Shown: piece by piece, positions 41,691 to 61,020 of the stretch
Layout: every line of letters begins with the position of its first letter
Position numbering within the stretch: the stretch's first letter is position 1
From: Eubacteriales bacterium
Lineage (GTDB): Bacteria; Bacillota; Clostridia; Peptostreptococcales; Anaerovoracaceae
Direction: 5' to 3'
Assembly (NCBI GenBank): GCA_028872475.1
Contig: JAQYMQ010000004.1
Span: 44,482-108,481 of the forward strand
Length of the DNA stretch: 64,000 nt
Program-made: the position numbers and the translations under genes
Notes under the pieces: generated by a model
What the model saw: the letters and a program-made list of their open reading frames with translations, nothing else
Databases searched by the model: none
Told to the model about the DNA's origin: nothing

Positions 41691-42944
41691 TTATCTAAAG
41701 AAAATCAATTTTTCATAGTTAATCTTTACTCTATTAGGAACTTGACACTCTTCCATATCATTGTTTTTTAATATAAATGAATACTGTCTTTCTGGATTAT
41801 TTACATGTGTAAAAAATATCTTTTTCTCTACAAACCCATTCAGATTACCTACAACATTAATATCTATAACGTCACTTATCTTTTTTCCAAGACTGTCCTC
41901 ATATACATTTTTATTAACACAATCATCTTCATCATATACCGGAATAATATCATAGCTTCTAATACCTATAGATTTAATATCTTTAATATCTTTAATATCT
42001 TTAATATCTTTAATATCTTTAATATTTTTAATATTTTCAGCATCTCCAGCATTTTTATCGTCATTAATTCTTTTATTTTTTTCAACATGTTTAACGATTA
42101 AATTTTCCTTGCATCCTTCAAATGTGTCTGAATGAATAGTTTTGTATTTCAAAACTTCACTTTTTAAGCGCAAATTCCATTCTGGAATCTCTAAATACCC
42201 ATCTAAAAATCTAGCTTCAAGGATATTATCCACTCCAACCAGTTTTGCTCCCGCAATTGTCTTAGGACTTTTAAAAACATCCTTAGTCTTGCCATGTTCG
42301 ACAACACAACCATCATTCACAATCAAAATTTCATCACTGAATCTATAAAGTTCTTCTCTGTTGTGAGAAACCATAATAATAGTCCCATCAAAATCTGAAA
42401 TCATAGCTTCCATTTGAATCTGCAGGGATTCCTTTAGGCTCTCATCAAGAGCTGAAAATGGCTCATCTAATAAAATAATCTTTGGCTCATATGCCATTAT
42501 CCTTGCAAGCGCTACCCTCTGTTGTTGACCTCCAGATAATTCTTTTGGCAATTTACTAGCTAATTCACTTATCTGAAACTTTTCTAGTAAATATGTAGTC
42601 TTATCCTCTTTTTGTTTTTTGTCACCCTTAGCAATGATATTAATATTTTCTCTAACCGACATAGTTGGAAAAAGAGCATAATTTTGAAACATATACGCTA
42701 CATTGCGGTCTTGTGGCTTAACATTAATCTTTTTTTCTTGACTAAACACTTCATCATTATCTAGAGAAATTGCCCCAAAATCAGGGGTATAAATCCCTGC
42801 AATACACTTAAGAAGCATACTCTTTCCCGCACCAGATGCACCCAAAACACCAATACGCTTTGAATTGCTAGAAAATGAAATATACATATTAAAATTGTCC
42901 AACTTCGATTTGATATTTACATCTATAGCCATAAAATTCCCCAA
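41691..42944 (-). CDS. modC: Molybdate ABC transporter ATP-binding protein
   Basis: [42 protein letters not shown]; adjacent to modB and modA. Confidence 0.88.
   Translation of the reverse strand: MGNFMAIDVNIKSKLDNFNMYISFSSNSKRIGVLGASGAGKSMLLKCIAGIYTPDFGAISLDNDEVFSQEKKINVKPQDRNVAYMFQNYALFPTMSVRENINIIAKGDKKQKEDKTTYLLEKFQISELASKLPKELSGGQQQRVALARIMAYEPKIILLDEPFSALDESLKESLQIQMEAMISDFDGTIIMVSHNREELYRFSDEILIVNDGCVVEHGKTKDVFKSPKTIAGAKLVGVDNILEARFLDGYLEIPEWNLRLKSEVLKYKTIHSDTFEGCKENLIVKHVEKNKRINDDKNAGDAENIKNIKDIKDIKDIKDIKDIKSIGIRSYDIIPVYDEDDCVNKNVYEDSLGKKISDVIDINVVGNLNGFVEKKIFFTHVNNPERQYSFILKNNDMEECQVPNRVKINYEKLIFFR
41973..42035. repeat. 9-bp in-frame tandem repeat (TTTAATATC x5, TTTAATATT x2) inside modC
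   Basis: Seven consecutive 9-mers encoding NIKNIK(DIK)5 on the minus strand. Confidence 0.93.
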
Positions 42945-53089: not shown

Positions 53090-54316
53090 CTCTACAATAG
53101 TAGAAATTAATATGCAATGTTAGACTATGGAAAAGATAGCGGGGAATTTCTATCTACAATAGTAGAAATTAATATGTAATGTTAGACAAAATTCGGGGTT
53201 AATCGTTCCAATGCATCTACAATAGTAGAAATTGATATGTAATGTTAGACAGAGACGGAGAAGTACAAACAATATTTATCTACAATAGTAGAAATTAATA
53301 TGTAATGTTAGACACTAATTCTTTACCATTGGATTTTTTATCTACAATAGTAGAAATTAATATGTAATGTTAGACAGCGAAAATAACAACCCTCAATAAT
53401 TTATCTACAATAGTAGAAATTAATATGTAATGTTAGACACAATATCAGTCAATTCATATTCATTATATCTACAATAGTAGAAATTAATATGTAATGTTAG
53501 ACTATGGAAAAGATAGCGGAGAATTTCTATCTACAATAGTAGAAATTAATATGTAATGTTAGACTAACTGTCTGTCCAACGAGTAATTGTATCTACAATA
53601 GTAGAAATTAATATGTAATGTTAGACATGGACGGTATTGGTCCAGAGTCTAACAATCTACAATAGTAGAAATTAATATGTAATGTTAGACTCTAGCTCTG
53701 TTACAGTAGGTCTTTGATCTACAATAGTAGAAATTAATATGTAATGTTAGACCGGTACAGTTGAAGAGAAATAGAATAAATCTACAATAGTAGAAATTAA
53801 TATGTAATGTTAGACTACAGAACCCCCAAAATACTATGAATTATCTACAATAGTAGAAATTAATATGTAATGTTAGACAAAGAAACTTCAGAACGTTTAG
53901 GGGAAATCTACAATAGTAGAAATTAATATGTAATGTTAGACTATTTATTCGATCTCTTTTTTGCGATATCTACAATAGTAGAAATTAATATGTAATGTTA
54001 GACTGAGGAGCTTCGAGGGGAAATCTACTATCTACAATAGTAGAAATTAATATGTAATGTTAGACATCTAATATCTACAAAAAATTCAATTACATCTACA
54101 ATAGTAGAAATTAATATGTAATGTTAGACGATGCTCCAACCAGTGTACCATTACCATCTACAATAGTAGAAATTAATATGTAATGTTAGACAATGAGTAT
54201 AAATGAAGAAACTGTATTATCTACAATAGTAGAAATTAATATGTAATGTTAGACGATTAAAGAATTAGCAGATATAGAACATCTACAATAGTAGAAATTA
54301 ATATGTAATGTTAGAC
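53090..54316 (-). CRISPR. Type V-A CRISPR array, 20 repeats of 36 bp and 19 spacers of 26-28 bp
   Basis: Minus-strand repeat GTCTAACATTACATATTAATTTCTACTATTGTAGAT with the Cas12a-type 3' stem-loop TCTAC-TATT-GTAGA. Every repeat boundary was located by hand. Confidence 0.98.
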
Positions 54317-54441
54317 TCCAAATTTAGCAATCTAACAAATATTTCATTATTTTTTATATATTTTTGTGGTTGTCTAACAACTTTTATATCATTGCCTAAC
54401 ATTACTACATCTATTTTACCTTTACAGACTGAGGTTTGCAA
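54317..54441 (-). promoter_or_regulatory. CRISPR leader
   Basis: AT-rich 125 bp between the cas2 stop and the first repeat. The leader-distal end of the array carries the degenerate repeats. Confidence 0.75.
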
Positions 54442-54717
54442 TTACTTTATCATTATAAAGTCCTCTTCATCATTAATAGCATATCCATATCTTTCAATTT
54501 TACAAGTATTTGACATTTTAAATATTATCACACTATCAGATTGTGAAAATTCTCTTTCAAACTTGTTCTTTAAATCTACACGTATATTTTCTAATATATG
54601 ATCACTATTTTTAATTTCATACACAGAATATTGCAATCTGCGTCCAAATTTACATATGTATTTAGAAAATCTTCTCCTTAATTTATCGTTTGCGATATCA
54701 TAACTTACTAAAATCAT
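54442..54717 (-). CDS. cas2: CRISPR-associated endonuclease Cas2
   Basis: MILVSYDIANDKLRRRFSKYICKFGRRLQYSVYEI; adjacent to cas1. Confidence 0.94.
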   Translation of the reverse strand: MILVSYDIANDKLRRRFSKYICKFGRRLQYSVYEIKNSDHILENIRVDLKNKFEREFSQSDSVIIFKMSNTCKIERYGYAINDEEDFIMIK

Positions 54718-54718
54718 T

Positions 54719-55684
54719 TCACCAAATTCTTATAGTTGGAAAATCATTCTCCAACACACCTTTCATAAATTTCCGGTAATATCCCTGAATATATAAGAAG
54801 ATTTCTTCTTTATGCTTTAATATCTCTCCCATAAACATTGATGTATATTTTGAAGATTCCTTCCATTTCAATACGACTCTATTACCAATTCTTTCAAAGT
54901 CATCTTCTTTTATTTTATCCAAGTTAATTCCTTTTCTCACGCAATAATCTATGAGTGGTCTCAAAGGTTCCATCAAGTCACATATTAAAGACTTTCTCAT
55001 ATAAAAACATCTATGTAATACTCCATAATAAGTATCAAATCCATAAATATTTGTAATCGCATCAATCACATTGAATAAAATTGTATACCCAATATCTAAA
55101 GTGGAGTTTATATAATCACATTTTATTCTTGGTTTTCGTCCAATCCAGTCAACATCATCAAATATTTCTCTAAAATATATTTTAGAAGCATTACCTTCAA
55201 TCCCTAATATAGTTAAAAGCTCCAATTCATTACTTTCGATGGATTTCAAATTTTCTTTTAAATAATATATTGATTTCTTCGTTATTATACTTTTATTTCT
55301 TATTTGATTAAGTGCAGCAATCTGATTTTGAATTTTATTAGCAACAATTTTTTGTCCTATAATTAAATCGTTATAATCATACTGCTTTTTTCTTAATAAA
55401 GTATTACCTTCCATTTTACTACCGATTACTTCATATAATTTCATACCCGCACTAAACAAACAAATTGAAAATCCAAACTTCTTGCTTCGTCTAATCAATC
55501 CTGTTGTTATTGTTGTATCACCAACAACAAAAAGAGCAAATAATCTATAACAAGTTGATTGATACTTTATTTTATTGTCTTTATCTCTTATTACAATATT
55601 ATCATTCTTATATGATATTTTGTCGCCAGCATACGGATAATAAATTAAAATTTGCTTATATTGAAAATCTAATTTACTAATCAT
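54719..55684 (-). CDS. cas1: CRISPR-associated endonuclease Cas1
   Basis: Metal-site contexts EGNASKIYF, VLHRCFYMRKSLICDLMEPLRP. Confidence 0.95.
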   Translation of the reverse strand: MISKLDFQYKQILIYYPYAGDKISYKNDNIVIRDKDNKIKYQSTCYRLFALFVVGDTTITTGLIRRSKKFGFSICLFSAGMKLYEVIGSKMEGNTLLRKKQYDYNDLIIGQKIVANKIQNQIAALNQIRNKSIITKKSIYYLKENLKSIESNELELLTILGIEGNASKIYFREIFDDVDWIGRKPRIKCDYINSTLDIGYTILFNVIDAITNIYGFDTYYGVLHRCFYMRKSLICDLMEPLRPLIDYCVRKGINLDKIKEDDFERIGNRVVLKWKESSKYTSMFMGEILKHKEEIFLYIQGYYRKFMKGVLENDFPTIRIW

Positions 55685-56238
55685 ACTAATCCTCTATCAC
55701 AAGCATCACTGTATATACAATTCTCACATTTTTTAACATTTGTTTGAACGTAATTGGAAATATCCGTTGTCTTTAACTCCACTATAACATCTTCAAAAAG
55801 TCTAAACATCTCTAAATCTTCTAACGGTTTTTTTATATAGTATCTTTTATTGTCATCTAAACTATGAATATACATACTTTCTACAGTATAACCTAGCTCT
55901 TGCATACTAAAATATTGAGCGTAAAGTTGTAAAATATACCCATCATAGATTTCTACAACCTTCTTTTTTCTCTCAATTAATATTTTATTTACAGAGTCAT
56001 ATATATCAATCTTGCCGACTAGTCCATATCGTTCAGAATAAATATCTATACCTGTAATAATATTCCTTTTATCGTAATAACTGTATTTATCAATAGTTTC
56101 ATGAGCTTTCTTACCATTTAATTGAGCTTCTTTTTGAAAAGTTAACTGCTCCCTATTACCATACATATTATGAAAATATATAGAAGCAGGGCAAAATATA
56201 TAGTCATTTAAATAGCTAATTAGAATTAACTCATCCAT
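55681..56238 (-). CDS. cas4: CRISPR-associated exonuclease Cas4
   Basis: RecB-like GLVGKIDIYD...LIERKK...QLYAQ and four cysteines (FCPAS, CENCIYSDAC). Confidence 0.92.
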   Translation of the reverse strand: MDELILISYLNDYIFCPASIYFHNMYGNREQLTFQKEAQLNGKKAHETIDKYSYYDKRNIITGIDIYSERYGLVGKIDIYDSVNKILIERKKKVVEIYDGYILQLYAQYFSMQELGYTVESMYIHSLDDNKRYYIKKPLEDLEMFRLFEDVIVELKTTDISNYVQTNVKKCENCIYSDACDRGLV

Positions 56239-56241
56239 AAG

Positions 56242-59200
56242 CTACTCCACCACACAATTGAGCTGTACGTACTTTAACCATTCTTTATTAGAAATATTTG
56301 TTTTAACTTTAAATATATCTCCTCCCTCTTCAGAAGTCTTCTTTAATTGCTCAATTATCCACAATACTTTTCGCGCAATATTATATGCTCCATTAGCATC
56401 AGCATCCTTCGGTAGTCTATCATCATATTGCTCTTCACTATTATAAAAATATCCTGCTTTATTCTTAATGGGTGATATAATATAATCTATCTCTGTTCCT
56501 GTTACACTATTTCTCATTTGTAATGTAAGATATAATATCTTTATAAGTGATTTATAAAAATCTTTACTTTCATTTCCAATAATCTGTTCTTTTAGATTTT
56601 TATTATAATCAATATCATACTGATTAAATAAATCAATCATAGCAGCTGTTAAATCAATTTCTTCATAATCCCATTGACCATTTTTTTCTGCATTTCTAAA
56701 TTTTTTTATTCTTTTACCATAAGTACAAATTGTCCATGTTGATATATCTGACGTACTTGCTCTTGGCATCTTAGAATAATCTACTAAAAATTCAAAATAT
56801 TTTTCCAATTCGTTATATCTAATATCAACAAAACTAGAGAATAGCACCTTTGAATCATTAACACTTTTATATCTAGGATTAATTAAATCTACAAATCCTG
56901 TTGTTGGATCAATTTTACTTGTTAACCATGGTGGAATATAAAATAAAAAACCATTTTGTGACTTCATTTCTTTAAAACTTGTAAATTTATTTGTAAGCTG
57001 ATATGCAGAGAAAAGTCCACCTTTGTCATACTTGTCTAAATTTTTATTAACATAGAAATTCAATTTATCTATAAGCATCTTTTCAAACTTCTGATAAACT
57101 TGTTTCTCAACTTTCATTCTGCTCCTTTTAAATCCGCTATTCAAATCCTCTATAGCAATTACTGCATCATATTTTTCAACAAGGCTACATATCTTATGAA
57201 CTACTTGACTTATATATCCCTCTTTAACATTTTTTATACCTGCTATAGTATTCCAGTCTTTTCTAGCTTTTGTGTTTTCTTTCTCTCTGGAATCAAGCAA
57301 AGAATGATAATCGGTAATATATTTTCTACACTGTTCTCCATCCATATATTCGTTTTTAATTAAATTGAAAGAACGCTGCTCATGAATGCAACCTTTCTCA
57401 TCCACTACAGTAATATATATTAAATTCCTTTCACCTCTGTCTATACCTATAACATAATTGTTATCGCACTTAATTAATTCCTCACGAACTTTAAGATTTA
57501 TGCTTCCCGTGAAAGTAGATTTAAAATTCGCTTTAACCGGAATATGCAAACTAAATTGATCCTCAGTATATCTTCTATCTTTAATAATATCGTATGAAAA
57601 AACACTTTCTTTCTTAAGATTACCATCATTTTTATTCACAATAGGTTCATTCGATGTATGGATTGTAGCATTATTAATATCAATACTCGCTTTTCTAACA
57701 AACATCTCAGCTCTACCATTCAAAGCGAATATAACATCTTTTAAATTATCCTCATCAAATAAAGCATTGAAATACATCGTATGTAAATTAGGTTTACCCT
57801 TACTATACTCAGAAAAATCTTTATTATAAATTTTAAATAAGAATAATTTGCCTTCTGAAACCAATTTATCTATATACGCTTTTGAAACATCTTCAAATTC
57901 TAATTTATAACCCTGCTCATTCACTTCTTTATAAAATTCGCTTATATTTTCATACTCTTGCGTATCAGAAAATTGAAAATTAAAATGTTTCCAATCATTA
58001 TGTTTATTAATACTTAATTTAAAGAAATCAATTAATTCATGACAAAAATTAATATCAAAATTTTCACCTTTTTTATGTAATCCACGATTATATTTATCCA
58101 TTAAATTATCCGAAGGAGCATATACATCAATATTTTTCTCCGAAAAAAATACTTTTGGAAGCATCCTATGTGATCTAGATAGTAGTTTATATACCATCTT
58201 TGATATAATTTCTTCCCCTTCTGAAATTTCTGGAATCTGCCTGAATATATTTTTTGATTTTTTATTCATTATTCCTAAATAATAATACTTCTTGTCTTTA
58301 AATAGTACAGATGAATAATCCTCCTCTTTATTTCTGTCCCATCCCCCCAAAAATTGTGGATTATCAAAATTTAATTTGATTTTTTCATTAGAATAAGGTT
58401 TTTGTGTCACATAATCTCTTACTTTATTATATAAAAGATTAACTGTATTTAGTTGATCTAATAAAGGTAAATATTGAGCATAAAATCTTTCGTCCTTTGA
58501 TGTTTCAATACCTGATCCTTTAAACTTGCTTGCAAATCGTTGAAAATCTTTAATACTATCTAAAAATATTTTAATCTTTACAACAGCTTTTTTATCGGAT
58601 ATCAACTTTTTATCAAGAGAATAATCTCTAGATAATATTAACTCTATATCTTTAAAAGCGTCCATAATAGCTGTATATAATTTTTTTGATTCTAAAATAA
58701 TATATTCACAAACATTATTGCCTGATGTATTAAATGAAGAACCTTGGTTGCCTGCATTTTGCAACTGCACTAAGCTATAACTTTTTATCCCTTTAAAATA
58801 CTTCTTCCTATTTTCTTCATATTTTTCTATATTCTTTTTCTTTGATAAAGGCTGCTCACTATCATATTGCTCATTCAATCCATTTTGTATTGTAACCCAA
58901 TCTCCGAAAACAGACTTAGAAATGGACGTTATATTAGGTCCTGATGATACATAAACTCCATGCAAATTATAATTTTCTATATGTGTAAATAATCCTGCTA
59001 ATTCCTCAAATATATCTAAAGTTCTAAGGTGTGTCTCCTCACTAATATATTCCAAAAATTCTTTAATTGCTGTAACCAATTCTCTATCATTTTTAAATTT
59101 TTCTGGAATAAATGAAATACTATCTCTATCACTTAAAATTTGTTTATATAACATTTTCAATTTAGGAATTCTCGTTTTATTTTTTTGATTGTATTCATTA

Positions 59201-59979
59201 ATATACTCATTAATTCCTTTTATTTTCTCGCCTGTTAATAATGAATATCCACCAATTATTTGATTATATTGTTCAATTCCTTTTTGAGACAAATGTTTGC
59301 TAAAATTATTTATACTAAAAATACTAATCTCATCATCCAATATAAAATCTGAATAATTATTCTTTAAATCATCTAACCCTGTTTCTTTCAATACATCTGT
59401 AATTAAAATTTTTAATTTTAAATTATCTAAATATTTATGTAAATTTTGATTAATAATTCTATAACCTATTTCTGTTGATTTGTTTTCACAGGAATACATA
59501 TTTTTTCTATTTTTAAAAAATCCTTGAAAATATGTAGTAAAATCGCGAAATTTCTTTAGCGCTTCCCTCTCTTCATCCGTTTCTATATAATCAACCAATA
59601 TTTCACGAATTATCTCTTTTTTAAATAATTTAGAATATTTATCATGCTCGCTAAATGATTTAGAAATCGCCTTTCTCATATCTAAATTTATTTTTTCCAT
59701 TTGCTTTTTTTCTTTATCATCTTTATTGTTTTTAAAATACAAATGTGCGTATTCTTCGATATCTTTCAGTTCACATCCTTCAAGTGCTTCATCGATAAAC
59801 ACCTTATGATAACGGTTCATCATTTTTTTTATTAGTACATATGCGTCTGCTCTTTTTTGATCTTCATCAATTAATCCTAATTTTGTAAAATTTTCTAAAG
59901 TCTCTCCCTGTGGAATAAGCTTAAATTTAAGCGTCTTATTCAAAGAGTATAATTTTGTAAAGTTATCTATTTTTTTCAT
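56242..59979 (-). CDS. cas12a: Type V-A effector nuclease Cas12a (Cpf1), 1245 aa from the refined start
   Basis: RuvC-I IGIDRGERNLIY, RuvC-II IAIEDLNSGFKRSR, RuvC-III DADANGAYNIARK; NPQFLGGWDRNKEEDY; LHTMYFNALF. Start refined to MKKIDNFTKLYS after AGGAGGG. Confidence 0.97.
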   Translation of the reverse strand: MKKIDNFTKLYSLNKTLKFKLIPQGETLENFTKLGLIDEDQKRADAYVLIKKMMNRYHKVFIDEALEGCELKDIEEYAHLYFKNNKDDKEKKQMEKINLDMRKAISKSFSEHDKYSKLFKKEIIREILVDYIETDEEREALKKFRDFTTYFQGFFKNRKNMYSCENKSTEIGYRIINQNLHKYLDNLKLKILITDVLKETGLDDLKNNYSDFILDDEISIFSINNFSKHLSQKGIEQYNQIIGGYSLLTGEKIKGINEYINEYNQKNKTRIPKLKMLYKQILSDRDSISFIPEKFKNDRELVTAIKEFLEYISEETHLRTLDIFEELAGLFTHIENYNLHGVYVSSGPNITSISKSVFGDWVTIQNGLNEQYDSEQPLSKKKNIEKYEENRKKYFKGIKSYSLVQLQNAGNQGSSFNTSGNNVCEYIILESKKLYTAIMDAFKDIELILSRDYSLDKKLISDKKAVVKIKIFLDSIKDFQRFASKFKGSGIETSKDERFYAQYLPLLDQLNTVNLLYNKVRDYVTQKPYSNEKIKLNFDNPQFLGGWDRNKEEDYSSVLFKDKKYYYLGIMNKKSKNIFRQIPEISEGEEIISKMVYKLLSRSHRMLPKVFFSEKNIDVYAPSDNLMDKYNRGLHKKGENFDINFCHELIDFFKLSINKHNDWKHFNFQFSDTQEYENISEFYKEVNEQGYKLEFEDVSKAYIDKLVSEGKLFLFKIYNKDFSEYSKGKPNLHTMYFNALFDEDNLKDVIFALNGRAEMFVRKASIDINNATIHTSNEPIVNKNDGNLKKESVFSYDIIKDRRYTEDQFSLHIPVKANFKSTFTGSINLKVREELIKCDNNYVIGIDRGERNLIYITVVDEKGCIHEQRSFNLIKNEYMDGEQCRKYITDYHSLLDSREKENTKARKDWNTIAGIKNVKEGYISQVVHKICSLVEKYDAVIAIEDLNSGFKRSRMKVEKQVYQKFEKMLIDKLNFYVNKNLDKYDKGGLFSAYQLTNKFTSFKEMKSQNGFLFYIPPWLTSKIDPTTGFVDLINPRYKSVNDSKVLFSSFVDIRYNELEKYFEFLVDYSKMPRASTSDISTWTICTYGKRIKKFRNAEKNGQWDYEEIDLTAAMIDLFNQYDIDYNKNLKEQIIGNESKDFYKSLIKILYLTLQMRNSVTGTEIDYIISPIKNKAGYFYNSEEQYDDRLPKDADANGAYNIARKVLWIIEQLKKTSEEGGDIFKVKTNISNKEWLKYVQLNCVVE

Positions 59980-60019
59980 AACAGCCCTCCTATAATAAAT
60001 TTTAATTACATGCACAAAC

Positions 60020-60040
60020 GGTTAACTTGCAGAATTAACC
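60020..60040. promoter_or_regulatory. Dyad GGTTAA-N9-TTAACC between the WYL gene and cas12a
   Basis: Perfect 6-bp inverted repeat touching the WYL stop codon, 40 nt upstream of the cas12a ATG. Confidence 0.4.
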
Positions 60041-61020
60041 TAAATCGTATTAACTACATTATTAATCATTTTTTTGTATCTCTTATTTACACTCTCTGGT
60101 CCTACAATCCTCACCTTTCCTTCAAATCCAAATATCCAACAAAAGAAAATATGGCTAACAGCAACATTGACAACAACACTAAAATGTTTATCATCACACA
60201 CCTTAATATCTATATCTAAACCAAATCTATCAATAATTGCATCCACAACATCATTTTCTACAAAAAGCTCAACATCTTCACATTGGCTATTGAACATTCG
60301 GAATGTAGTATTAAGATATACTTCTAAAACAAAGTCATCTGGTGCTTTATTAGCTATTTCATCTAAAATAATCAAATTCGGCATGATACGATCTATTCTA
60401 AAATTCCTAACTTTATTATCGTAATCATAGACTCCAACTAGATAATAATAGTCTCCACTCCATATCAAATGTAGTGGAGAAAGAATATATCGATCACCAT
60501 TATGCTTCATACACTTGTTTTTATTCACATCATACTTAAAATACTGAAACGATATTTTTTTCTTTTTATTTATGGCTTCATTAATTTTGTCTATATTAAT
60601 ATATATATTTTCATTTTTAGCTTTTGTACGATTTTCACATCCTATATTTCGTCTCAGAGTTGTAGAAGCATAGATACTAGCAAGAGATGAAAGCTTTTCT
60701 ATAAGCTCCTTACTTTTTTGCTCCGGAATAAATTTTGAAGATGCCACTGCATCAATCAATAACTTTAGTTCCGGAATATCAAATTTTCTATCAAATAAAT
60801 TATATTGATTTTGTTTAGATTTTACTTCTTCAATTTCATAACCAAATTCTCTCAACACTTCAATATCTTTTTTGATTGTGTGCCTATGCGACTTAATTCC
60901 ATAATCTTCTTCTAAAATATTAATAAAATCTGTTGTTGTAAGAAAATGCATCTCATCCGTTTGCTCTTTTAATATCTTAAGAATATACAATAACCTTAAT
61001 TTTGTACTATTGTCCATCAA
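60040..61020 (-). CDS. HTH + WYL-domain transcriptional regulator
   Basis: N-terminal winged-helix-like LRLLYILKILKEQ...HTIKKDIEVLREFGYEIEE; ISFQYFKYD...RYILSPLHLIWSGDYYYLVGVYD...RNFRIDRI WYL pattern. Confidence 0.9.
   Translation of the reverse strand: MMDNSTKLRLLYILKILKEQTDEMHFLTTTDFINILEEDYGIKSHRHTIKKDIEVLREFGYEIEEVKSKQNQYNLFDRKFDIPELKLLIDAVASSKFIPEQKSKELIEKLSSLASIYASTTLRRNIGCENRTKAKNENIYINIDKINEAINKKKKISFQYFKYDVNKNKCMKHNGDRYILSPLHLIWSGDYYYLVGVYDYDNKVRNFRIDRIMPNLIILDEIANKAPDDFVLEVYLNTTFRMFNSQCEDVELFVENDVVDAIIDRFGLDIDIKVCDDKHFSVVVNVAVSHIFFCWIFGFEGKVRIVGPESVNKRYKKMINNVVNTI

Follow-up and report, generated by a model that had tools for sequence, protein, structure and literature searches.

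Two near-identical spacers in a type V-A CRISPR array: copying within the array or two acquisitions of one target

The window, i.e., the whole 64,000-nucleotide stretch that was analysed, carries a complete type V-A set, with the products of cas12a, cas4, cas1, and cas2 all scoring above the curated NCBIfam cutoffs (4/4). The nearest solved chains to the Cas12a protein are 8qwd ReChb and LbCas12a. The repeat listing gives a 36-nt repeat with a 3' stem-loop (UCUAC..GUAGA), the stem being read from the sequence. The cas side is taken as the leader end, since the degenerate terminal repeat lies at the opposite end. The locus comprises the following features:

56242..60015, minus strand: cas12a (TIGR04330 cas_Cpf1, 1289 bits, cutoff 300)
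55681..56238, minus strand: cas4, type V (TIGR04328 cas4_PREFRAN, 199.8 bits, cutoff 70)
54719..55684, minus strand: cas1, type V (TIGR04329 cas1_PREFRAN, 364.9 bits, cutoff 300)
54442..54717, minus strand: cas2 (TIGR01573, 43.5 bits, cutoff 24.5)
54317..54441, minus strand: putative AT-rich leader, between cas2 and the first repeat
53090..54316, minus strand: type V-A CRISPR array of 20 repeats of 36 nt and 19 spacers of 26–28 nt, as obtained by scanning for repeats and listing the spacers; its leader end is at 54316 and its trailer end at 53090
53152..53187, minus strand: repeat on the leader side of spacer 19, a perfect consensus copy
53090..53125, minus strand: terminal repeat, substituted at two sites (crRNA positions 11 and 36)

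A gene for a WYL-domain protein, probably a transcription regulator (60040-61020), lies immediately upstream of cas12a and in the same orientation. Elsewhere in the window, the C-terminal half of an open reading frame for a ModC-like ABC ATPase (41691-42944) includes a tandem repeat of low complexity (KDIKDIKDIKDIKDIKDIK).

Spacers 13 and 19 of this array share one common origin.

53503..53528, minus strand: spacer 13, A allele on the plus strand, crRNA AGAAATTCTCCGCTATCTTTTCCATA
53126..53151, minus strand: spacer 19, the oldest, adjoining the degenerate terminal repeat, G allele, crRNA AGAAATTCCCCGCTATCTTTTCCATA

The two are identical at 25 of 26 bases, and the sole difference lies at window base 53520 (A) versus 53143 (G). 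With the array read from the minus strand, this mismatch falls at position 9 of 26 in the crRNA, where spacer 13 has T and spacer 19 has C. The array listing bears out the coordinates, sequences, and 25/26 match given for the two spacers in the preliminary description, and its placement of the mismatch at crRNA position 9 is likewise right. The twins have the same boundaries and the same length of 26 nt, with five spacers between them, and no other pair among the 19 spacers is alike (the next best local score is 8, compared to 24 for the twins). With 3e-12 chance pairs expected to match at 25 or more of 26 positions, a chance likeness of the two is ruled out.

Unless a target fixes the reading frame, the silent nature of the change carries almost no weight in deciding how the pair arose. 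Every single substitution of the 26-mer was enumerated in all six frames, of which five are open and the sixth contains a stop. The change is silent in two of the five open frames, +1 (YGKDSGEF) and -1 (RNSPLSFP), and non-synonymous in the remaining three; the earlier reading of frame +1 was thus correct, but silence is not confined to that one frame. Of all transitions in the 26-mer, 31% leave the protein unchanged in frame +1 by itself, and 92% do so in one or more of the open frames. The preliminary description had held that two acquisitions fit the pair better than copying; its main basis was this silent change, and copying explains the same data, although the lack of shared neighbours does support its view.

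No target of the twin spacers was found, in any frame, in the collections searched. At up to 3 mismatches, neither a self nor a prophage target occurs in the host's own genome, nor is there a match in 351 family genomes; none was found in three other species of the genus. In frame +1 with a TTTV PAM, YGKDSGEF continues as Leu-Lys, and the resulting protein-level target YGKDSGEFLK is absent from 332 family genomes at up to 2 mismatches. The exact 24-mer of the twins has no match in IMG/VR, nor do spacers 10, 12, 17, and 18, and blastn of all spacers against GenBank phages and PLSDB plasmids returned nothing at E≤1. Peptides of all open frames gave nothing above chance against conjugative element loci. 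The database checks proposed earlier, i.e., a phage, prophage, or plasmid target, and a YGKDSGEF gene with a TTTV PAM in both alleles, gave no credible target in the host genome, IMG/VR, GenBank phages, or PLSDB.

Several partial matches were considered and rejected. The degenerate YGKDSGEF pattern occurs in three IMG/VR contigs that do not have the Leu-Lys demanded by the TTTV PAM, and its ten matches in GTDB genome contigs include none (0/10) followed by Leu-Lys. The degenerate GKDSGEFLK pattern has 1 match in IMG/VR, against an estimated ~0.1–0.2 expected; it lies in a short protein on a contig (L040) with no known link to the present host, agrees at 20/26 bases by hand count, and is taken as chance. 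A search of IMG/VR with the PAM and first 17 nt returned two related contigs with the remaining bases mismatched, also taken as chance.

Matches were found for three other spacers of the array.

54130..54155, minus strand: spacer 3, identical at 26/26 to the host's own CitMHS/ArsB-type transporter gene, with TGGA at the PAM position
54004..54029, minus strand: spacer 5, whose target, with a TTTA PAM, is a mobilisable or conjugative element
53627..53654, minus strand: spacer 11, 20 nt of the host recR followed by 8 nt equal to the inverted start of the repeat

Spacer 5 is the only one of the 19 with a confident mobile-element target. It matches at 26/26 in four genomes (G012, G024, G484, and G767) and with 1–2 mismatches in three (G008, G848, and G505), and the element is widespread, occurring in at least seven genomes of the order (L067, L069, and L102-L105). 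The site lies within a very large methylase/helicase open reading frame, 2454 aa long in L067, that matches ResIII and Eco57I methylase, and the L067 contig also encodes a MobA/MobL relaxase, indicating that the element is mobilisable or conjugative. The PAM is TTTA in 6/7 genomes and TTCA in 1/7, and this target fixes the crRNA orientation and PAM of the locus. Its alleles differ only by synonymous changes (TTA/CTA, TAC/TAT, and GAG/GAA) that leave the protein unchanged, which makes it credible in principle that the present system could sample two silent alleles of one target.

Spacer 3 is a tolerated self-match. Its site (L036; G000:C13:125944-125969) is flanked by TGGA instead of TTTV, so Cas12a should not cut there. 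The recR part of spacer 11 (L037:8707-8726; 20 nt, E 0.005 in the own genome) recurs as the same 20 nt in genome G844, and on the plus strand it is followed by GTCTAACA, the first 8 nt of the repeat. End matches of at least 8 nt arose in 6/1000 shuffled spacer sets, a figure attached to a post hoc observation. Judged after the fact, the junction is what one would expect from a half-integration product, with a recR fragment attached to a repeat at its leader-side end, that was then recaptured as a spacer.

We somewhat favour copying within the array followed by one mutation as the origin of the twins over two separate acquisitions. A single acquisition would be the ancestor of both spacers 13 and 19; one unit would then have been copied through repeat-repeat recombination, either by duplication of a block with subsequent loss of the copied neighbours or by a one-unit template switch or conversion, and one of the copies would later have gained a single transition. 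The identical ends and the shared 26-nt length agree with this course, as a second independent spacer would have a chance of ~0.41 of sharing the length. The mutation is also affordable: the six internal repeats at the old end carry 1 substitution, a rate at which 0.24 changes would be expected across the pair's 52 nt. The published base rate is higher for copying, as a SpacerPlacer reconstruction covering 24,090 spacers, which treats spacers one edit apart as the same, counted 695 duplications against 8 reacquisitions and 7 independent insertions (PMC11472070). Those duplications resemble the present case in placing the same or a one-edit spacer at two sites of one array; the present pair differs in having no shared neighbours and no sister arrays by which to place the event. 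According to a review, duplications and deletions in arrays probably stem from misalignment between repeats during replication, on which variants in the terminal repeat act as a brake (PMC8047081). The spacers beside 13 and 19 are not duplicated, which counts against copying: a minimum of two rearrangements, or else a special copy of a single unit, would be required. Both variants are still present in the terminal repeat beside spacer 19, whereas the repeat before that spacer is consensus; either the variants are younger, or any breakpoint in the terminal repeat must fall within its first 10 nt. A further point against copying is that acquired spacers are reported to mutate seldom (PMC10132644).

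Alternatively, the system may have taken up the same PAM-anchored protospacer on two occasions separated in time, each from a different allele of one mobile element, an origin that we consider a serious contender though the less probable one. The second uptake may have come after the first allele had escaped or been replaced, with no need for priming. The preliminary description had named shared neighbouring spacers as the sign of a segmental duplication; within the present array only spacers 13 and 19 are similar and no neighbours are shared, which argues against a simple block duplication and lets the idea of two acquisitions survive. The old-to-new order of the array is natural under it, recombination with the terminal repeat is not required, and the rarity of spacer mutation within arrays (PMC10132644) and the synonymous alleles at spacer 5 target sites in seven genomes both speak for it. 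A selective reason can also be offered, as a Cas12a study with lambda phage found that a mismatch at position 8, adjoining position 9, had no significant effect on in vitro cleavage and yet led to lysis in liquid culture (PMC10132644), implying that a second spacer could pay. Against two acquisitions stand the absence of a target or allele in the collections searched and the rarity of reacquisition in reconstructed arrays (PMC11472070). A 40-kb element at ~32% GC would offer an estimated ~2,000 TTTV sites, so taking the same site twice needs a hot spot or strong selection. The earlier remark that type V-A is not known to prime is sound, as primed adaptation was not seen in the V-A adaptation study, an E. 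coli assay (PMC9419969). The more specific scenario, in which the protospacer was resampled after a silent substitution at crRNA position 9 and the pair is a natural V-A record of escape and re-immunisation, perhaps aided by a hot spot, is unlikely. An assembly effect, in which short reads or mixed strains put two population variants of one spacer at two array sites, is very improbable. The genome is a 23-contig draft, and the repeat-spacer-repeat units at the twins are nearly identical over ~98 bp, a length at which short-read graphs can tangle; the array nevertheless assembles into a single contig, its units are consistent in length, and the twins have distinct neighbours. In a rough weighing based on judged likelihood ratios, as opposed to a computed posterior, copying is ahead of two acquisitions by less than two to one.

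The other V-A arrays of the family provide a small base rate. We found three such arrays, and an exact non-adjacent twin occurs in 1/3 of them; a sample of 391 class genomes yielded no further V-A arrays. In this case (L097; G160:C59), spacers 7 and 9 agree at every base of their 29 nt, a length shared by no other spacer there, with one different spacer between them and no shared neighbours. Like the present pair, it is a type V-A case of one spacer repeated without its neighbours, and it differs in matching at 29/29 with one spacer between rather than at 25/26 with five. By analogy, the L097 twin would fit copying in the present array. An array common to the host and three other species of the genus (one genome per species) was not found. 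In another V-A array of the family (L098; G259:C150), unit 4 reads as a 90-nt gap, apparently because a one-base insertion (TTTATAAATTTC) shifted the repeat.

If the twins arose by copying, the two crRNAs would direct Cas12a against one and the same protospacer, along with its point variant. By analogy with the position 8 result, each twin crRNA is likely to retain activity on the other allele, though with lower reliability. A copied origin would mean that old spacers do drift, which bears on the use of mismatched spacers as evidence of phage escape. If the twins are separate acquisitions, they would put dates on two meetings with one element and offer a natural test of whether a mismatch in mid-target suffices to make an update of Cas12a immunity necessary. 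On present evidence, the twins are an ordinary pair in an ordinary array, and either origin is fairly ordinary.

In type I and II systems, priming or repeated acquisition would likewise yield more than one spacer against one element, whereas type V-A showed no primed adaptation in the one E. coli assay (PMC9419969). The locus shares with LbCas12a-like type V-A arrays the Cas12a, Cas4, Cas1, and Cas2 proteins, a 36-nt repeat ending in AATTTCTACTATTGTAGAT, spacers of 26–28 nt, and a TTTA PAM, seen here at the spacer 5 target. There is no structural difference from those arrays, and the twin spacers are the sole distinction of the present one.
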